Made by a program: the position numbers and the translations under genes. A DNA stretch of 64,000 bases from Elusimicrobiaceae bacterium. GTDB lineage: Bacteria > Elusimicrobiota > Elusimicrobia > Elusimicrobiales > Elusimicrobiaceae. The notes under the pieces were generated by a model. It was given only the letters and a program-made list of their open reading frames with translations, ran no database searches and was not told the DNA's origin. Each line of letters opens with the position of its first letter. Within the stretch, counting starts at the first letter, position 1. Location of the stretch: assembly GCA_017528825.1 (NCBI GenBank), contig JAFXOI010000041.1, positions 1-64,000 of the forward strand. The letters are read 5' to 3'. Of the stretch, positions 9,821-52,626 are shown piece after piece.

Positions 9821-10885
9821 TCAATGGACATATTGTCCGTTTATCATATCCACTTGTTGCTTCACCATTGCGCAACGCTCTGGGGAACAAGCAGGTTTAT
9901 CGCCACAATTGCCACAACAACAAGAACTATCATTATATGTAGCATGTTTACAGCCATAACTACCATTTACATTCGGAGTTTCATAACAAACAGAATCATT
10001 AGAAAAAGTGCCTCCATCACAACCACCATAAAAACTACGGCTGATACAAAGCGAATCATCAAACACAGCATTTCGACAGCCTGACTGTGCATACACCGAA
10101 GATGAAACACATACAGAACTGTTTGAAAAATCAGACCCATTACAACCATCGCTTGCGGCTACACAAGTAGCATTCGTAAAAGTGGAATTTTGACAACCTC
10201 CGCTTGAGTATTGATAAATTCCCTCACATACTCCCCCCTCACCGACTTCTAAATTTTTCTCCCCTTTTACTTTATACCCACAAAACTGCGTAGTTTCATT
10301 ATAGGACATACCTAACCCTACGCATCTATCTGCATTTGTTTTATAACATTTAGCAGTTTTCTGCCCAAAGAAACCATCAACTTCATCACACGTGGCTTTA
10401 TCAACAGACTGGTCAAGCAAATAACGCGTATAGCCGCCTTCTGCATTTAATTCTTGCCCTTGTAGCAAACCACCGCAAAGTCTGTTGGCGCGCTCATCTC
10501 CGGTGGCCGCTTCACAATGTAACTGTCCGGCAAACGTCGGACTCTCATCTAAATAACTAGCAAGCCGTACATTATCGAGCTTACTATTGGTAACGCGGAT
10601 GACATTGGGGTCGGCCGTATTATTAGGGGTTACTAAAGCAAAGGTTAAATCCGTATTATTCATAGTAACATCTAAATTAGCCATTTCATCCGTATAAGAC
10701 CCGTTAGTCATTTTAATGGCTTCTTCGGCATCTTTAATGGCTTTGGCACCCGGCAACATGGTGCTCCAATGGCTTTTATCCACCGCCCCTTGATACATAG
10801 GGATAGCAATAGCTGAAAGCACTCCGATAATCAGTACGACTACTAGTAATTCCACCAGCGTGAATGCTTGTTTATTTTTTTGCAT
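9821..10885 (-). CDS. type IV pilin-like protein with Cys-rich repeat tail (copy 1)
   Basis: The 354-residue protein begins with a short positive leader and the class III prepilin motif QAFTLVELLVVVLIIG; cleavage would be between Ala and Phe (position -1 is Ala, not the usual Gly). The N-terminal helix and a conserved block to about residue 155 are nearly identical to the pilins at 34328 and 51598. The tail (about 205-335) contains five imperfect units of about 20 residues of the form G-C-x(4)-F-x-N/D-x-S-x-C (for example GCQNSTFTNATC, GCRNAVFDDSLC). The end is SSCCCGNCGDKPAC, also conserved in the other two. It is probably an exported minor or major pilin stabilised by disulfides. The leader RNA at 10904-11146 controls it. 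Confidence 0.87.
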   Translation of the reverse strand: MQKNKQAFTLVELLVVVLIIGVLSAIAIPMYQGAVDKSHWSTMLPGAKAIKDAEEAIKMTNGSYTDEMANLDVTMNNTDLTFALVTPNNTADPNVIRVTNSKLDNVRLASYLDESPTFAGQLHCEAATGDERANRLCGGLLQGQELNAEGGYTRYLLDQSVDKATCDEVDGFFGQKTAKCYKTNADRCVGLGMSYNETTQFCGYKVKGEKNLEVGEGGVCEGIYQYSSGGCQNSTFTNATCVAASDGCNGSDFSNSSVCVSSSVYAQSGCRNAVFDDSLCISRSFYGGCDGGTFSNDSVCYETPNVNGSYGCKHATYNDSSCCCGNCGDKPACSPERCAMVKQQVDMINGQYVH

Positions 10886-10903: not shown

Positions 10904-11146
10904 CTGTTTTTAGAAAATGAACGCAAAAAAACGGCTGCTATATTTGAGTCAATCTCAGGTAACCCAAACACAACAGCCGTGGTTTGCTATCATCCGAAGA
11001 TGATAGCAAACACTCGGCACTACATATCCAAGGGATCAGCTCGGATATGTAGTGCCTAAAACGACTGTTCTTGGACTGAGATTGACTTTGGCTTAGCCAA
11101 AGTACACCGTACTCTGCATACGGTTCCAAAAACAGATTCAAATTGT
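10904..11146 (-). ncRNA. structured pilin leader RNA, copy A
   Basis: Reading 5' to 3' on the minus strand: anchor CTGTTTTTGGA (H1-5'); hairpin CCGTA/TACGG; hairpin CTTTGGC/GCCAAAG; segment TCAATCTCAG (4a); TCCAAGAACAG (H1-3'), continuing into ACAGTCGT; a 14-bp hairpin starting GGCACTACATATCC; a 13-bp hairpin starting GTTTGCTATCATC; then ACGGCTG. This last segment opens a 19-bp terminator hairpin ending CAGCCGT and seven T (10931-10925). The terminator loop holds CTGAGATTGA (4b), the exact complement of 4a. ACAGTCGT can pair with ACGGCTGT, which would break the terminator. A second H1-3'-like strand, TCTAAAAACAG, lies at 10914-10904, between the terminator and the ribosome binding site. The terminator ends 40 nt before the pilin ATG. 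The structure is read directly from the sequence; a regulatory role is inferred. Confidence 0.85.
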
Positions 11147-34327: not shown

Positions 34328-35353
34328 CTAATCCAGAAAATTATTTTTGTCCATATAATACGGGTCGCAGCTCTTACCACGCGATTCGCAAGATGGAGCA
34401 CTCCCGCAATACGCCCCACAACAACAAGAGGTTTCATCGTAAGAGGTGGCTTTTCCACTCTGTCCGTCTTGCCAATGTGTGCCACATGCACCTGATACAT
34501 TGGCATAACAAATTGAACCATTTGTAAATTGACTTTGAAAACAGGCTCCGTCACCCCACTGACCGCGTGTATTAGACACACAAATACTACCATTCGTAAA
34601 CGTAGTATTACTACAAGTATGAAGTCCCCCTACAAGACCAACGCATGTTCCTCCCGTAAAACTCACACCGTTACCTTGGCACCCCCACTCCATATCCGCC
34701 AAACAAACTGTCTCGTCTCCAAATATTCCAGATCCATTTTTAACACCGCACAAATCGGTCCCAACTATAGCTGCTGATCCTAGGTTATCGCATTTTGTGG
34801 CAGTGTCCTTGTAACATTTTGTTTTGCTTGTACTCCAACTTCTATTTGCATTATCACACGTGGCTTTGTCTATGTCTTGGTCTAATAAATAACCGGTGTA
34901 GCCGTCTTGACTCGTTAATTCTTGCCCCATTAATAATTTTCCACAAAGTCTGTTGGCACGCTCATCTCCGATGGCCGCTTCACAATGCAACTGTCCGGCG
35001 AATTTCGGATTATCATCTAAGTAACTAGCCAGTCTTACATTGGCTAGTTTGCTATTTGTAACTCTGATTACATTCGGCTCAGAGGTGTTATTAGGTGTGA
35101 TTAAGCTAAATGTTAAATCAGCATTTTCCATAGTTACATCCAAATTAGCCATGGTGTTGGTATATTCACCGTTGCTCATTTTAATGGCTTCTTCGGCATC
35201 TTTAATGGCTTTGGCCCCGGGTAACATCGTGCTCCAATGGCTCTTATCCACTGCCCCTTGATACATAGGGATAGCAATGGCGGAAAGTACTCCTATAATG
35301 AGTACGACGACTAGTAATTCTACTAGTGTGAAGGCATGTTTGTTCTTTTGCAT
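34328..35353 (-). CDS. type IV pilin-like protein with Cys-rich tail (copy 2)
   Basis: The 341-residue protein starts with HAFTLVELLVVVLIIG; prepilin cleavage would be Ala-Phe. Residues up to about 155 match the pilin at 9821 almost without change, including AVDKSHWSTMLPGAKAIKDAEEAIKM and LRLASYLDDNPKFAG-type segments. The tail from about residue 175 differs strongly in sequence and length but keeps the pattern of Cys and F-T/x-N-G-S-x-C units (TFTNGSICVSN, QFTNGSICYAN) and the end TSCCCGAYCG. So the two genes are duplicates whose exposed parts diverged. Leader B lies upstream. Confidence 0.87.
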   Translation of the reverse strand: MQKNKHAFTLVELLVVVLIIGVLSAIAIPMYQGAVDKSHWSTMLPGAKAIKDAEEAIKMSNGEYTNTMANLDVTMENADLTFSLITPNNTSEPNVIRVTNSKLANVRLASYLDDNPKFAGQLHCEAAIGDERANRLCGKLLMGQELTSQDGYTGYLLDQDIDKATCDNANRSWSTSKTKCYKDTATKCDNLGSAAIVGTDLCGVKNGSGIFGDETVCLADMEWGCQGNGVSFTGGTCVGLVGGLHTCSNTTFTNGSICVSNTRGQWGDGACFQSQFTNGSICYANVSGACGTHWQDGQSGKATSYDETSCCCGAYCGSAPSCESRGKSCDPYYMDKNNFLD

Positions 35354-35371: not shown

Positions 35372-35610
35372 CTGTTCTTGGAAAATGTACGCAAAAAAAC
35401 GGCTGTTACACTTGAGTCAGTCTGAGAGCCTCAATCATAACAGCCGTAGTTTGCCATCGTCTTGAGACGATGGCAAACATTCGGCACAAAACATACGGGT
35501 AATTAGTCCGTATATTTTGCGCCTAAAACGACTGTCTTTGGACTCAGACTGAACTGCCTACGGCAGTGCACCGCATTCTGCATACGGTTCCAAAAACAGA
35601 ATCAAATTGT
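35372..35610 (-). ncRNA. structured pilin leader RNA, copy B
   Basis: It has the same helix order as copy A but different stem sequences. Minus strand: CTGTTTTTGGA anchor; hairpin CCGTAT/ATGCGG; hairpin ACTGCC/GGCAGT; 4a TCAGTCTGAG; TCCAAAGACAG continuing into ACAGTCGT; a long hairpin from GGCGCAAAATATACGG; a 13-bp hairpin GTTTGCCATCGTC with a TCAA loop; and a terminator ACGGCTG to CAGCCGT with 7 T (35399-35393). The terminator loop contains CTCAGACTGA, the exact complement of 4a. A second copy of the anchor's partner, TTCCAAGAACAG, occurs after the terminator (35383-35372). The T run ends 39 nt before the pilin ATG. Together with its promoter it fills most of the 366-bp gap between the pilin and tolB. 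Confidence 0.85.
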
Positions 35611-38376: not shown

Positions 38377-38595
38377 ACAATTTGACCTGTTTTTGGAACC
38401 GTTGCCAAAACGGACAGCTATTGAACAAATAGCTAGGATTCAGTCCAAAAACAGCCGATAGTAGGCACACAAAGGCGACGGCCTGCGTGTGCCGAGTGTT
38501 TGCCGCTCACTTGGGCGGCAAACTACGGCTGTTATGTTGGGTAGCTGAATCCTGCTCAGACATAGCAGCCGTTTTTGTTGTGTTTTATAAAACAG
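38377..38595 (+). ncRNA. structured pilin leader RNA, copy C
   Basis: Plus strand order: CTGTTTTTGGA anchor; hairpin CCGTT/AACGG; hairpin AGCTATT/AATAGCT; 4a AGGATTCAG; TCCAAAAACAG (perfect partner of the anchor) continuing into ACAGCCGA; hairpin GGCACAC/GTGTGCC with inner AGGC/GCCT; 9-bp hairpin GTTTGCCGC/GCGGCAAAC; then terminator ACGGCTG to CAGCCGT and TTTTT (38572-38576). The terminator loop AGCTGAATCCT contains the complement of 4a. A shorter partner of the anchor, AAAACAG, follows at 38589-38595. The pilin ATG is at 38620. With its promoter and the pal promoter it accounts for the 367-bp gap. Confidence 0.85.
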
Positions 38596-38619: not shown

Positions 38620-39147
38620 ATGAAATACAACAAAAAAGCCTTCACACTCATAGAACTGCTTATTGTCGTACTGATTATCGGCATCCTAACTGCTGTGGCA
38701 ATACCGCAATATCAAAAAACAGTTACACGCTCCGAGGCAATAAGTATGTTACAACTATTCAAACCATTTACAGAGGCATATAACTTAGACTATATGGAAC
38801 GCGGAACAAACCCACCTAATTTTGAAATATTCGGCGTTTCTTTACCGGCAGATTGGACGGGAGCTGATACAACACAAGCCACCAACGGGAAATGGGAACT
38901 ATCTTATTACGGTGGACACGATTGGAGATGGATCACGATAATCAAGACAACAGAACCATATAGCAACTGCGGTTTTAGGTATCTTAAACAAAGAGGAACG
39001 GGTGGACATACTTATCATCCACTCGATGAAATAGTTTGCGTGGAAAATTATACGGTAGGTAATAACGGCTCTTTTTGCACAAAATTATTTGGTGGAAAAT
39101 ATCTAGGAGGCGATGGAGGATATCGAGTTTATTCTTTGCCTCTATAG
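38620..39147 (+). CDS. type IV pilin-like protein, short form
   Basis: I choose the ATG at 38620 after AAGGAGAAA; the frame is open upstream, but that part lies in the leader RNA. The 175-residue product starts MKYNKKAFTLIELLIVVLII, a prepilin motif with Ala before the cleavage Phe, followed by AVAIPQYQK, typical of pseudopilins and pilins. The C-terminal domain is unlike the Cys-rich pilins and has only a few Cys (SNCGFRY, VCVENY, SFCTKLFGGKYLG). Such short pilins often have a disulfide near the C-terminus. Which pilus or secretion system it serves is not shown here. Confidence 0.85.
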   Translation: MKYNKKAFTLIELLIVVLIIGILTAVAIPQYQKTVTRSEAISMLQLFKPFTEAYNLDYMERGTNPPNFEIFGVSLPADWTGADTTQATNGKWELSYYGGHDWRWITIIKTTEPYSNCGFRYLKQRGTGGHTYHPLDEIVCVENYTVGNNGSFCTKLFGGKYLGGDGGYRVYSLPL

Positions 39148-44626: not shown

Positions 44627-45109
44627 CTACAAGTAATATGCTTTCATACGAGTAATAAATTTATAGTTATGTTCTCCGGTTCCACCTAAATCTCTACATC
44701 CCTGCGCTCCAATTGCCCCATCTCCTGTACAAGTCATTTTTCCCACATACTCCGGATACTGACATTTTATCCAATAACGCAATGCCACACGAGTATCATC
44801 TGCCGGGAAAGACAAAACTGTTACATAATAGCCAGCACTGTTTGAGTTAACGCTAATTTCCATCTTTGTAGGATCATAAGGGATTTGTATATCTAATGCG
44901 TCCAAAGTAGGAGTAGCTCCTCCCGTCTCCATGTAATATCTTTTAAAAGATTCTGCGATTTGCCTCGTATGCATTAATAATTCAATATTTCTAGATTTAC
45001 GCACTGCCCGTTGATATTGCGGCAAAGCAATTGCTGATAAGATACCGATAATTAAAACAACTACTAATAATTCAATAAGCGTGAAAGCCCTTTTATTTTC
45101 TAGAAACAT
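44627..45109 (-). CDS. type IV pilin-like protein, short form
   Basis: A 160-residue product starting MFLENKRAFTLIELLVVVLII, with prepilin cleavage at Ala-Phe, then ALPQYQRAVRKSRNIELL typical of pilins. The C-terminal part has three Cys (IKCQYPEY, KMTCTGDG, QGCRDLGG). There is no leader RNA of the A-D type. Instead a promoter with the same upstream box as the pilin at 51598 drives it (45139-45209). It is divergent from another pilin at 45279. Confidence 0.85.
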   Translation of the reverse strand: MFLENKRAFTLIELLVVVLIIGILSAIALPQYQRAVRKSRNIELLMHTRQIAESFKRYYMETGGATPTLDALDIQIPYDPTKMEISVNSNSAGYYVTVLSFPADDTRVALRYWIKCQYPEYVGKMTCTGDGAIGAQGCRDLGGTGEHNYKFITRMKAYYL

Positions 45110-45278: not shown

Positions 45279-45770
45279 ATGATACGCAATTCATCTCGCG
45301 GATTTACACTCATTGAGCTGTTAGTAGTAGTACTTATCATTGGCATTTTAAGTGCCATTGCCTTGCCGCAATATGAAAAAGTAATATGGAAAATCCGCGT
45401 GGCACAAATCATACCAGTAGTCAGATCTTTGGCAGAAGCAGAACAAAGATATTTTTTAGCCAACGGCACTTATACGACGAACATGAACGAATTGGATATA
45501 TCTTTTAGTCAACCCACATCATACGATACTGGGAAGATGTATTGGACCCTCCACGCGCAAGAAGCCAACTCCTATAAACATGTCTATGCCGAAATAGACC
45601 GATGGGGTGATACACATTTCTATATCCGTTATGATTTGGCAAATGAGAAGATGGAATGTTACCCAGAATCAGTCAACACCAAAGGCGAAAAGATATGTAA
45701 ACTGCTGTCGCAACAGACACCTTATCGTTGTCCAAATCGACCTCAAAATTTTACCTGTTACGAGATGTAA
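45279..45770 (+). CDS. type IV pilin-like protein, short form
   Basis: I take the ATG at 45279 (MIRNSSRGFTLIELLVVVLII) because it gives a normal prepilin leader with Gly-Phe cleavage and has TGAGGA upstream; the frame extends upstream without conservation. The 163-residue product continues ALPQYEKVIWKIRVAQIIP and ends with four Cys (MECYPES, KICKLL, YRCPNR, FTCYEM). Its promoter at 45232 leaves only a short leader. It forms a divergent pair with the pilin at 44627. Confidence 0.86.
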   Translation: MIRNSSRGFTLIELLVVVLIIGILSAIALPQYEKVIWKIRVAQIIPVVRSLAEAEQRYFLANGTYTTNMNELDISFSQPTSYDTGKMYWTLHAQEANSYKHVYAEIDRWGDTHFYIRYDLANEKMECYPESVNTKGEKICKLLSQQTPYRCPNRPQNFTCYEM

Positions 45771-48745: not shown

Positions 48746-48962
48746 ACAGTTTAATCTGTTTTTGGAACTGTATGTAGAATACAGGCTTTGGCAATTTTGC
48801 CAAATCACCGAAACGCCAAAAACAGTCGTTTAGGCACAAAATAAAGTGGGTAGCTCCCACTACGTTTTGTGCTGAAAACGTTTATCGTTTTAACGATAAG
48901 CTACGGCTGTTGTTTTGAGTTGCGTTTCGGTGGCTCAAAATAAGCAGCCGTTTTTTTTGCGT
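48746..48962 (+). ncRNA. structured pilin leader RNA, copy D
   Basis: Plus strand order: CTGTTTTTGG anchor; hairpin CTGTAT/ATACAG; hairpin TTTGGCA/TGCCAAA; 4a CACCGAAACG; CCAAAAACAG continuing into ACAGTCGT; hairpin GGCACAAAA/TTTTGTGC with inner GGG/CCC; hairpin GTTTATCGTT/AACGATAAGC; then terminator ACGGCTG to CAGCCGT and eight T (48951-48958). The terminator loop TGCGTTTCGGTG contains CGTTTCGGTG, the exact complement of 4a. No second anchor partner lies after the terminator here, unlike copies A-C. The pilin ATG is 33 nt after the T run. It accounts for most of the 353-bp gap after tRNA-Pro. Confidence 0.85.
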
Positions 48963-48991: not shown

Positions 48992-49507
48992 ATGAAAAGA
49001 GGTTTTACCTTAATAGAATTATTAGTTGTAGTATTAATTATCGGTGTGTTAACAGCTATCGCGTTGCCACAGTATGAAAAAGCTGTTGAGAAGGCCAAAC
49101 TCACCGAAGCACTAGAGACTTTGAGTGCATTACAACGAGCTACTGATATATTTTGCTTAGAAAATGGATTACCTACCACAGAAAGCAGATTATTAGGAGG
49201 TACTGACAATCCGGGACAAAATTTATCTATTAATTTAACAGGATTAAGCTGTTCCGACGAAAATTTTGGAGGACATAAATTTTGCAACTCAAAATACTTT
49301 GGATATGAAGTCATCTGTTACAACAACGGTTGTGTTATTTCTGCAGCTCGTACACAAAACAATACTTGGCTATATTTTCTATATCTAGATAATCGGGATG
49401 AAAATAATAACAACTATTCCAAAACTTGTCTGATTGAGACAGACAAAGGCGAAGGAATATGTAATGGTTTAGGAAAACAAGGATGGAATATTGACGACGA
49501 TAGATAA
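48992..49507 (+). CDS. type IV pilin-like protein, short form
   Basis: The 171-residue product starts MKRGFTLIELLVVVLIIG, a short leader with Gly-Phe cleavage, and continues ALPQYEKAVEKAKLTEAL. The C-terminal domain has Cys at several positions (IFCLEN, LSCSDEN, KFCNSK, VICYNNGC, KTCLIE, GICNGL), giving possible disulfides. Ribosome binding site AAAAGGAG. It is preceded by leader D and followed by a terminator, so it is a one-gene unit. Confidence 0.86.
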   Translation: MKRGFTLIELLVVVLIIGVLTAIALPQYEKAVEKAKLTEALETLSALQRATDIFCLENGLPTTESRLLGGTDNPGQNLSINLTGLSCSDENFGGHKFCNSKYFGYEVICYNNGCVISAARTQNNTWLYFLYLDNRDENNNNYSKTCLIETDKGEGICNGLGKQGWNIDDDR

Positions 49508-51597: not shown

Positions 51598-52626
51598 TTA
51601 CTTAAAATACTGCGCGTATTGTGCTTTGGCCTCTGCGCAACGCTCTGGCGAACAAGTGGGTTTTCCACTGCAATAATCACCGCAGCAGCAGGAGGTGTCT
51701 TGATAATTACCTGCTGAACCACAAGAACCAGATGCATTGGCAAAACATACCGAGTCATTTTTAAATGTTGCATATGCACAAGGAGCTAGAGAAGCAGAAG
51801 GATTGGCTATACAAAGGCCCCCATCAAACGTACTGGAGTATCCGCAAAACTTATGTCCACTACAAACAGCCGCTCCTTGAATAGTATCTTCTCTGCACGA
51901 ATCAGAATGAGAGGAGATATTATCATCAGATAGACAAACGCCTCCTCGTTCTATTTTTGTATTCCAACATCCAGAACACGACTCTTCAGCTTGGATATTT
52001 CCTTTTCCATCACTTCCGCATTGGTCTGAATAGTTTTCATTTTCAAGTACAGGTAAGCCTAATGCCTCACAACGGCTTGCTGTATCTTGATAACATTTCG
52101 TCTTGCTACTACTCCAAGACCGACCGGCATTTTCACAGGTTCCTCCATCTATTGCCTGATCTAATAAATATCCCGTATAACCGTCAGCTGACGTTAGCTC
52201 TTGGCCCATGAGTAATTTCCCGCAAAGTCTTTCGGCGCGCTCATCTCCGGCAAGTGCTTCACAATGTAACTGTCCGGCAAATTTTGGGTTATCATCTAAG
52301 TAACTAGCCAGTCTTACATTGGCAAGTTTACTATTTGTCACTCTGATTACATTGGGGTCAGAGGTGTTATTAGGAGTAATTAAGTTAAATGTTAAATCGT
52401 TGTTCTCCATAGTCACGTCCAAATTAGCCATCGTGTCGGTATATCCGTCATTGGACATCTTAAATGCTTCCTCTGCGTCTTTTATCGCTTTGGCTCCCGG
52501 GAGCATCGTGCTCCAATGACTCTTGTCCACTGCTCCTTGGTACATCGGTATAGCAATAGCAGAAAGAATCCCAATAATCAGAACTACGATTAATAGTTCT
52601 ATTAAAGTAAAGGCTTTCCTTGACAT
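51598..52626 (-). CDS. type IV pilin-like protein with Cys-rich tail (copy 3)
   Basis: I choose the ATG at 52626 (MSRKAFTLIELLIVVLIIG), with AAAAAGGAGAATAA before it; the frame extends upstream but is not conserved. The 342-residue product shares residues up to about 150 with the pilins at 9821 and 34328. It then has its own Cys-rich tail (CSGCWNTKIERGGVC, HKFCGYSSTFDGGLC, PCAYATFKNDSVC) and the common end TSCCCGDYCSGKPTCSPERC. Unlike the other two, it lacks a structured leader and uses the TTGACT promoter with the shared box. Confidence 0.87.
   Translation of the reverse strand: MSRKAFTLIELLIVVLIIGILSAIAIPMYQGAVDKSHWSTMLPGAKAIKDAEEAFKMSNDGYTDTMANLDVTMENNDLTFNLITPNNTSDPNVIRVTNSKLANVRLASYLDDNPKFAGQLHCEALAGDERAERLCGKLLMGQELTSADGYTGYLLDQAIDGGTCENAGRSWSSSKTKCYQDTASRCEALGLPVLENENYSDQCGSDGKGNIQAEESCSGCWNTKIERGGVCLSDDNISSHSDSCREDTIQGAAVCSGHKFCGYSSTFDGGLCIANPSASLAPCAYATFKNDSVCFANASGSCGSAGNYQDTSCCCGDYCSGKPTCSPERCAEAKAQYAQYFK

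Follow-up and report, generated by a model that had tools for sequence, protein, structure and literature searches.

In trp-type leaders and in riboswitch expression platforms, pairing between strands 1 and 2 and between strands 3 and 4 competes with pairing between strands 2 and 3, and an intrinsic terminator stands before the gene. The same arrangement is predicted for a structured RNA leader that occurs four times, each time before a pilin gene, in a 64,000-nucleotide (nt) stretch of DNA from an Elusimicrobiaceae bacterium (GCA_017528825.1, contig JAFXOI010000041.1, positions 1 to 64,000). This stretch, hereafter the window, is part of one contig of a 1.53 Mb genome in 41 contigs, the host genome. 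Unlike the trp-type leaders and riboswitch platforms, the present leader has neither a leader peptide nor a known ligand domain, one arm of its antiterminator is specific to each copy, and in a subset of copies a fifth strand would couple the choice of fold to access to the Shine-Dalgarno sequence. The riboswitches for cyclic di-guanosine monophosphate (c-di-GMP) that precede pilus genes in Clostridioides difficile (PMC6200980) also combine a structured leader with regulated termination, which in our case is predicted from sequence; they differ from the present RNA, which has no Rfam riboswitch match, another architecture and many more copies per genome. A hairpin whose loop of about 9 nt contains a self-complementary hexamer is known from the kissing-loop dimers of the human immunodeficiency virus 1 (HIV-1) dimerisation initiation site (DIS) and of oskar mRNA (PMC7357161). 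The similar hairpin predicted here belongs to a bacterial, cis-regulatory RNA, and its palindrome differs among the copies (TAATTA, TTATAA, TCATGA, TTCGAA, TTGCAA and others). Functional RNA oligomers have rarely been observed in nature (PMC7357161). The homo-oligomeric bacterial RNAs GOLLD, ROOL and OLE (PMC12286853) are, like the leader, complex bacterial RNAs, and self-association is predicted for the leader as well, whereas the latter is only about 210 nt long, is present in tens of dispersed copies, each directly before a gene, and has no Rfam match.

The leaders constitute a structured, shape-conserved RNA family that is without Rfam match and apparently undescribed. Quite probably they are cis-acting mRNA elements, bistable attenuators that act on transcription and, in some of the copies, on translation too. 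Transcription would start at or beside the anchor, which is strand 1. Strand 2, made up of segment 4a, CCAAARACAG and YCGT, would pair with strand 1 to form helix P0; strand 3, left unpaired, would join strand 4 in an intrinsic terminator, and transcription would stop before the gene (OFF). Alternatively, strand 2 would pair with strand 3 to form a long antiterminator that closes a junction with hairpins H3 and H4 and breaks P0, allowing RNA polymerase to read through (ON). In a subset of the pilin copies, and this step is less well shown, the freed strand 1 may pair with strand 5 (TTTTCCAAARACAG) and thereby uncover the Shine-Dalgarno sequence. The leaders are further predicted to dimerise through the palindromic loop of H3; if so, the ON/OFF choice may depend on other leaders, either nascent or already terminated. 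Candidate triggers of the choice are dimerisation, a protein, a metabolite or chance. The sequence features of an attenuator, a terminator before the start codon and a mutually exclusive antiterminator that uses the 5' arm of the terminator, were found. A leader peptide of the trp type would require an open reading frame, and in the conserved columns of a 40-copy alignment there was no invariant start codon; the leader sequence indicates no ligand.

Selection for the fold was assessed in two alignments. In a structure-blind MAFFT alignment of 40 sequences 92.6% of the cells were paired in the drawn helices, as opposed to 77.6% in shuffles, 56 of 77 pairs had changes on both sides, and the covariation score was 0.471 (shuffled, 0.199; slid partners, at most 0.141). 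The intrinsic terminator, a GC-rich hairpin followed by a U-run before the start codon, was paired in 90.4% of the cells (helix 8) and is present in all four window copies. A phylogeny-aware test resembling R-scape (G-test with average-product correction, and 40 null alignments in which the substitutions were replayed on a FastTree tree) detected 36 significant pairs at E <= 0.05 among 110 sequences, none of which was unexplained. Of these, 26 (of the 67 model pairs) were in the drawn helices, nine connected 4a with the terminator loop, and one, formed by columns 123 and 151, extended H4 within the H3/H4 junction. Because the alignment was fitted to the nested helices of the model, the counts for those helices lean upward; the ten pairs of the last two groups lay outside the model. 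As judged by this comparison, P0, the terminator, 4a:4a', H3, H4 and the small hairpins P1 and P2 are under selection. The original prediction for the window had claimed strong covariation and selection for the fold from four copies, and the claim was borne out, with statistical support, in the larger alignment.

Nearly all copies have the complement of segment 4a, the 9-12 nt ahead of the anchor's partner, in the loop of their terminator hairpin (4a'). The Watson-Crick run had a mean length of 9.7 nt with the copy's own partner and of 4.3 nt with the partners of other copies, and the own 4a' was unsurpassed (best or tied) in all 26 host-genome copies and in 88 of the 91 copies altogether. The view that 4a:4a' is a pseudoknot only, on a static fold, was dropped when constrained folding nested it in an antiterminator. 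In this second fold strand 2 (4a-CCAAARACAG-YCGT) pairs with strand 3 (ACGGCTGTT...TTGGG-4a'), which excludes P0 and the terminator alike, as expected of an antiterminator. In the main class the antiterminator core does not covary, because both of its sides are conserved there. In a diverged subclass the anchor is GATTATTTG and its partner CAAATAATC, the two being altered together. Strands 2 and 3 also change together in variants: AAUAAUCG:CGAUUAUU takes the place of ACAGYCG:CGGCUGU, AAUAAUCGUC goes with GGCGAUUAUU, AACGGCG with CGUCGUU, and AACAGUCGUA with UACGACUGUU. With hand-picked segments from 13 copies (12 variants and one canonical), permuted partners reached the observed mean in 0 of 20000 trials for the antiterminator core, with free shift, and in 6 of 20000 for P0. 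An earlier test of the core with restricted shifts had given no signal (7.23 vs 7.09), because the diverged variants are offset. In this comparison of sequences, covariation extends to all three helices (1:2, 2:3 and 3:4) even though 2:3 excludes the other two, and we infer that 2:3 is the antiterminator. The helices and their order in the original prediction were real, but the fold was drawn as static, being one of two mutually exclusive folds, and the partner of 4a was missed. It overlooked the antiterminator, the fact that the GGCAC hairpin (H3) has a palindromic loop, and the Shine-Dalgarno-pairing strand after the terminator, and it proposed no mechanism. The subclass with GATTATTTG and CAAATAATC, which is also shorter, was seen at L228 520-682, L229 1544-1727, L243, L253, L260 and L086 2527-2708, and the host genome holds at least two copies of it (C39:42019 and C1:191643).

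The usual apical loops of H3 are ACTAATTAC, CCTTATAAC, AAGTCATGAG, ACCTTCGAAAC, AATTGCAAG, CTGATCC and similar sequences. A palindrome of at least 4 nt was present in this loop in 183 of 198 copies and one of 6 nt in 128 of 198, with at least 14 different cores. Among distinct H3 loops 21 of 45 contained a 6-nt palindrome, against a mean of 2.0 and a maximum of 7 in 1000 shuffles; in the H4 loop of the same RNAs, which served as control, the number was 0 of 203. Since a loop of this size does not allow a palindromic hexamer to pair with itself in the same molecule, and the sequence varies yet stays self-complementary, loop-loop dimers are predicted, as in HIV-1 DIS (PMC7357161). A leader probably pairs with a second leader copy through kissing loops; with less support, dimerisation via H3 may also affect the ON/OFF choice. 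A loop that varies in sequence and remains palindromic over about 200 natural copies is an exceptionally clear indication that RNA dimerisation has been selected in a gene-control element. In the window the palindromes are GATC in copy A, TAATTA in B and AGCT in D; copy C, with a short H3 and loop GACG, has none. This short alternative H3 module, ACAAAGGCGACGGYCYGCGT, replaces the palindromic loop in L019, L024 and L034 (window copy C).

About half of 203 copies have a TAnAAT box that begins 10-12 nt ahead of the anchor. Read as a -10 box, it would place the transcription start at or beside the anchor. The distance between leader and start codon is fixed, with a median of 37.5 nt, and the orientation is constant. 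In many pilin copies the terminator is followed by TTTTCCAAARACAG and then by GGAGAA, with which TTTTCC can pair. Helices of at least 8 with the Shine-Dalgarno region were found in 33% of the pilin copies (6% in shuffled sequences), and the outer pairs of this helix covary (4 of 5000 permutations). Strand 5 is also complementary to the leader 5' end CTGTTTTTGGAA, which would explain the unpaired AA conserved after the anchor. The motif A[AG]ACAG occurred between terminator and start in 35% of the pilin copies, compared with 3% in shuffled and 10% in reversed sequences. With G-U pairs allowed, strands 1 and 5 could pair in 45 of 78 cases, whereas 22% was expected; because this excess is only moderate, the pairing is claimed for a subset only. 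In that subset, release of strand 1 is proposed to uncover the Shine-Dalgarno sequence, and this is the weaker part of the proposal.

The four leaders of the window were recovered where the original prediction had placed them, with the predicted order of helices in each, A and B on the minus and C and D on the plus strand. All four precede a protein with the Pfam N_methyl prepilin motif. Matches refer to R1, a covariance model of 207 positions and 67 pairs that was made from 40 copies.

10904-11135, minus: leader copy A, from the 5' anchor through the strand after the terminator (R1 match 10927-11135, 184.6 bits)
11126-11135, minus: A strand 1, anchor CTGTTTTTGG, 5' strand of P0, at or adjoining the predicted transcription start (TAnAAT box, in about half of the copies)
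11107-11123, minus: A hairpin P1, pentaloop GCAGA (pairing and covariation tests)
11085-11103, minus: A hairpin P2 (pairing in alignment)
11076-11087, minus: A segment 4a, 5' portion of strand 2, with its complement in the terminator loop (12-nt Watson-Crick run; covariation)
11061-11074, minus: A strand 2 core CCAAGAACAGTCGT, putative partner of strand 1 (P0) or strand 3 (antiterminator) (constrained folding; permutation test)
11016-11056, minus: A hairpin H3, apical loop CTGATCC at 11033-11039 with palindrome GATC (loop analysis)
10982-11011, minus: A hairpin H4, the GTTTGC hairpin (pairing and covariation tests)
10963-10980, minus: A strand 3 ACGGCTGTTGTGTTTGGG, terminator 5' arm and putative antiterminator partner (constrained folding; permutation test)
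10947-10958, minus: A 4a', the terminator loop, pairing with 4a (Watson-Crick run; covariation)
10925-10948, minus: A strand 4 and U-run, intrinsic terminator (pairing in alignment)
10904-10917, minus: A strand 5 TTTTCTAAAAACAG, putative second partner of strand 1, also pairing with Shine-Dalgarno GGAGAA (strand 5 tests; constrained folding)
9821-10885, minus: prepilin gene after copy A (N_methyl)
35372-35599, minus: leader copy B (R1 search)
35590-35599, minus: B anchor
35571-35587, minus: B P1
35553-35567, minus: B P2
35543-35552, minus: B 4a
35528-35541, minus: B strand 2 core
35483-35523, minus: B H3, loop ACTAATTAC at 35499-35507
35449-35478, minus: B H4
35429-35447, minus: B strand 3
35417-35426, minus: B 4a'
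35393-35416, minus: B strand 4
35372-35385, minus: B strand 5
34328-35353, minus: prepilin gene after copy B (N_methyl)
38387-38576, plus: leader copy C (R1 search)
38399-38413, plus: C P1
38416-38434, plus: C P2
38435-38444, plus: C 4a
38445-38461, plus: C strand 2 core
38464-38493, plus: C short H3, loop GACG, non-palindromic
38498-38523, plus: C H4
38525-38541, plus: C strand 3
38545-38553, plus: C 4a'
38555-38576, plus: C strand 4
38620-39147, plus: prepilin gene after copy C (N_methyl)
48756-48958, plus: leader copy D (R1 search)
48768-48784, plus: D P1
48787-48804, plus: D P2
48806-48815, plus: D 4a
48816-48829, plus: D strand 2 core
48834-48872, plus: D H3, loop TAGCT at 48851-48855
48880-48901, plus: D H4
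48903-48919, plus: D strand 3
48923-48932, plus: D 4a'
48934-48958, plus: D strand 4
48992-49507, plus: prepilin gene after copy D (N_methyl)

Three more prepilin-type genes of the window (N_methyl at 45023-45097, 45285-45365 and 52549-52626) had no detected leader copy.

The OFF and ON folds are close in energy. In constrained folds of 119 copies the ON minus OFF difference had a median of +5.8 kcal/mol, for leaders of roughly -100 kcal/mol, and the gap was +11.9 kcal/mol when 4a came from another copy. Up to the start codon, the following OFF/ON energies (in kcal/mol, from a computation that ignores pseudoknots) were obtained: -116.6/-109.9 (A), -104.0/-113.2 (B), -99.1/-96.9 (C) and -90.6/-92.7 (D). 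Several observations weigh against the attenuator as proposed. OFF is favoured by energy in most copies. The 4a:4a' pairing could form in the terminated state too, stabilising OFF, so its covariation does not itself tell which state it serves. H3 modules with loop GACG, such as that of copy C, are non-palindromic. Strand 5 is clear in a subset only (in A and B; D is without it), and none of the diverged variants inspected showed it.

The usually lower energy of the OFF fold, together with the position of 4a' in the terminator loop, where a pseudoknot is sterically possible, would suit a static leader that protects the mRNA or yields a stable short RNA by termination, 4a:4a' being a constitutive pseudoknot that ties the terminator to the 5' domain. 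Such a leader is unlikely, as it leaves unexplained both the complementarity of strand 2 (ACAGYCGT) with strand 3, which is kept in the diverged variants, and the Shine-Dalgarno-pairing strand 5. Another rival is a protein (an antiterminator, a pilin-responsive or a NusG-like factor) that would decide termination by binding P0 or H3; no candidate protein was found, and no search aimed at one was made. Although the anchor CTGTTTTTGG is almost invariant in the main class, as a protein site might be, the diverged variants alter anchor and partner jointly (GATTATTTG:CAAATAATC), which fits base pairing better than a fixed protein site, and we regard a protein factor as improbable to much the same degree as the static leader.

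A new riboswitch class, in which a small molecule such as a cyclic dinucleotide sets the choice between antiterminator and terminator at the P0/P1/P2 or the H3/H4 junction, is doubtful but deserves more credit than these two. The layout of leader, terminator and antiterminator fits, the junction nucleotides are partly conserved, and second messengers typically target surface and pilus genes, as with the c-di-GMP riboswitches of C. difficile (PMC6200980). Yet no Rfam riboswitch matches the leader, few unpaired positions beyond the switching strands are invariant, and the top loop signal is a palindrome of varying sequence, which fits RNA-RNA contact better than a fixed ligand pocket. It is very improbable that the leader is a mobile or repeated DNA element (a miniature inverted-repeat transposable element or an attC-like recombination site) that lies before pilin genes by chance. 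There are many dispersed copies, from 0 to about 48 per genome within one genus, and some of them have inverted end strings (CTGTTTTTGG ... CCAAAAACAG); against this, the diverging stems show compensatory change, the orientation and the distance to the start codon are constant, the -10-like box is at a fixed place, and the viral contigs searched gave zero leader matches.

In the host genome R1 gave about 48 matches with E < 1e-11, of which 46 were complete and two were cut off by contig ends. Partial copies at contig ends, C15:1-129 and C16:1-129, have equal scores and coordinates and are probably one repeat at an assembly break. A search of the host genome for the anchor-to-partner pattern gave 27 matches, and none for the reversed pattern. 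Of the 66 genomes of the genus 62 had leader matches, with at most 36 candidates scored per genome. Among 341 genomes of the phylum, mostly metagenome-assembled, 93 had matches: the 62 of the genus (g1), all 18 of the sister genus g15 and 13 of the distant family f21, whose genomes are also multi-copy (up to about 27 leaders per genome). Some of the copy numbers are minimum values. The other family of the same order had no genome among the matches listed in this survey. This patchy spread may reflect gene transfer among gut lineages. Named records with the leader were Elusimicrobiaceae or Elusimicrobium, mostly from ruminant and other animal gut samples. Five records with titles from other phyla among the matches listed (L051, L055, L079, L096 and L120) were rejected as family members, being short pattern matches only; four lacked the terminator at the expected place, and L120 had no model-supported element. 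No leader matched Rfam 15 (riboswitches, T-box, GEMM, Termite-flg, ROOL, OLE and others) at the gathering threshold, and the window gave tRNAs only. At relaxed thresholds a microRNA and a small RNA model hit H3, far under the cut-off, and the other leader copies gave nothing. The original prediction had recognised no known RNA class and had proposed comparison with Rfam and with other Elusimicrobiota genomes; the Rfam comparison agrees with it.

In the host genome 39 of the 46 complete copies (counted by eye) are followed, at no more than 500 nt and in the same orientation, by an N_methyl prepilin gene. Taking into account that the genome has 114 N_methyl prepilin-type matches, about one third of its prepilin genes carry the leader. 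The next gene downstream was a pilin in 36 cases and another gene in 8 in the host (in two of the 8, L221 and L228, a pilin directly follows the picked frame), with 71 and 43 in relatives, and 6 and 19 in f21. In the census, pilins were recognised by a regular expression. The description as a pilin leader stands for the window and most host copies, but the leader is not pilin-specific: in other genomes many matches, and most of those in f21, lie before non-pilin genes. The latter encode glycosyltransferases of families 2, 8 and 9, polysaccharide pyruvyl transferase, sulfatase and, among others, YrbL; outer-membrane protein beta-barrels, polymorphic membrane proteins and lipoproteins; and EcoRI-type and N6/N4 DNA methylases and a restriction subunit. 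The shared theme of the downstream genes is cell envelope and DNA modification. With pili, glycosyltransferases, outer-membrane proteins, DNA methylases and a restriction subunit, they resemble the phase-variable repertoire of other bacteria. Leaders ahead of DNA methylases (EcoRI-type, N6/N4) and a type I restriction-like protein were seen at L130, L242, L254 and L061. A link of the leaders with variable DNA modification is suggested.

As a family of regulatory RNAs these leaders are well supported and apparently undescribed; they come from a gut phylum that has been little studied, number tens of copies in some genomes, and could reveal an RNA route to surface variation. A distinctly speculative extension, to which we give still less credence than to the protein factor, is a genome-wide RNA switch for variable surface and DNA-modification genes. 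Every one of tens of paralogous leaders, all bistable, would have its own antiterminator sequence and a palindromic dimer loop, either its own or held in common; the leaders would sense one another, nascent or terminated, through kissing loops, and RNA-RNA contact, not DNA inversion or slippage, would pick the pilins, glycans and methylases to be expressed. The number of leaders is only loosely tied to that of pilins, some genomes with about 100 N_methyl candidates holding one or two leaders. Some relatives had more first-look N_methyl candidates than the host, up to 257.
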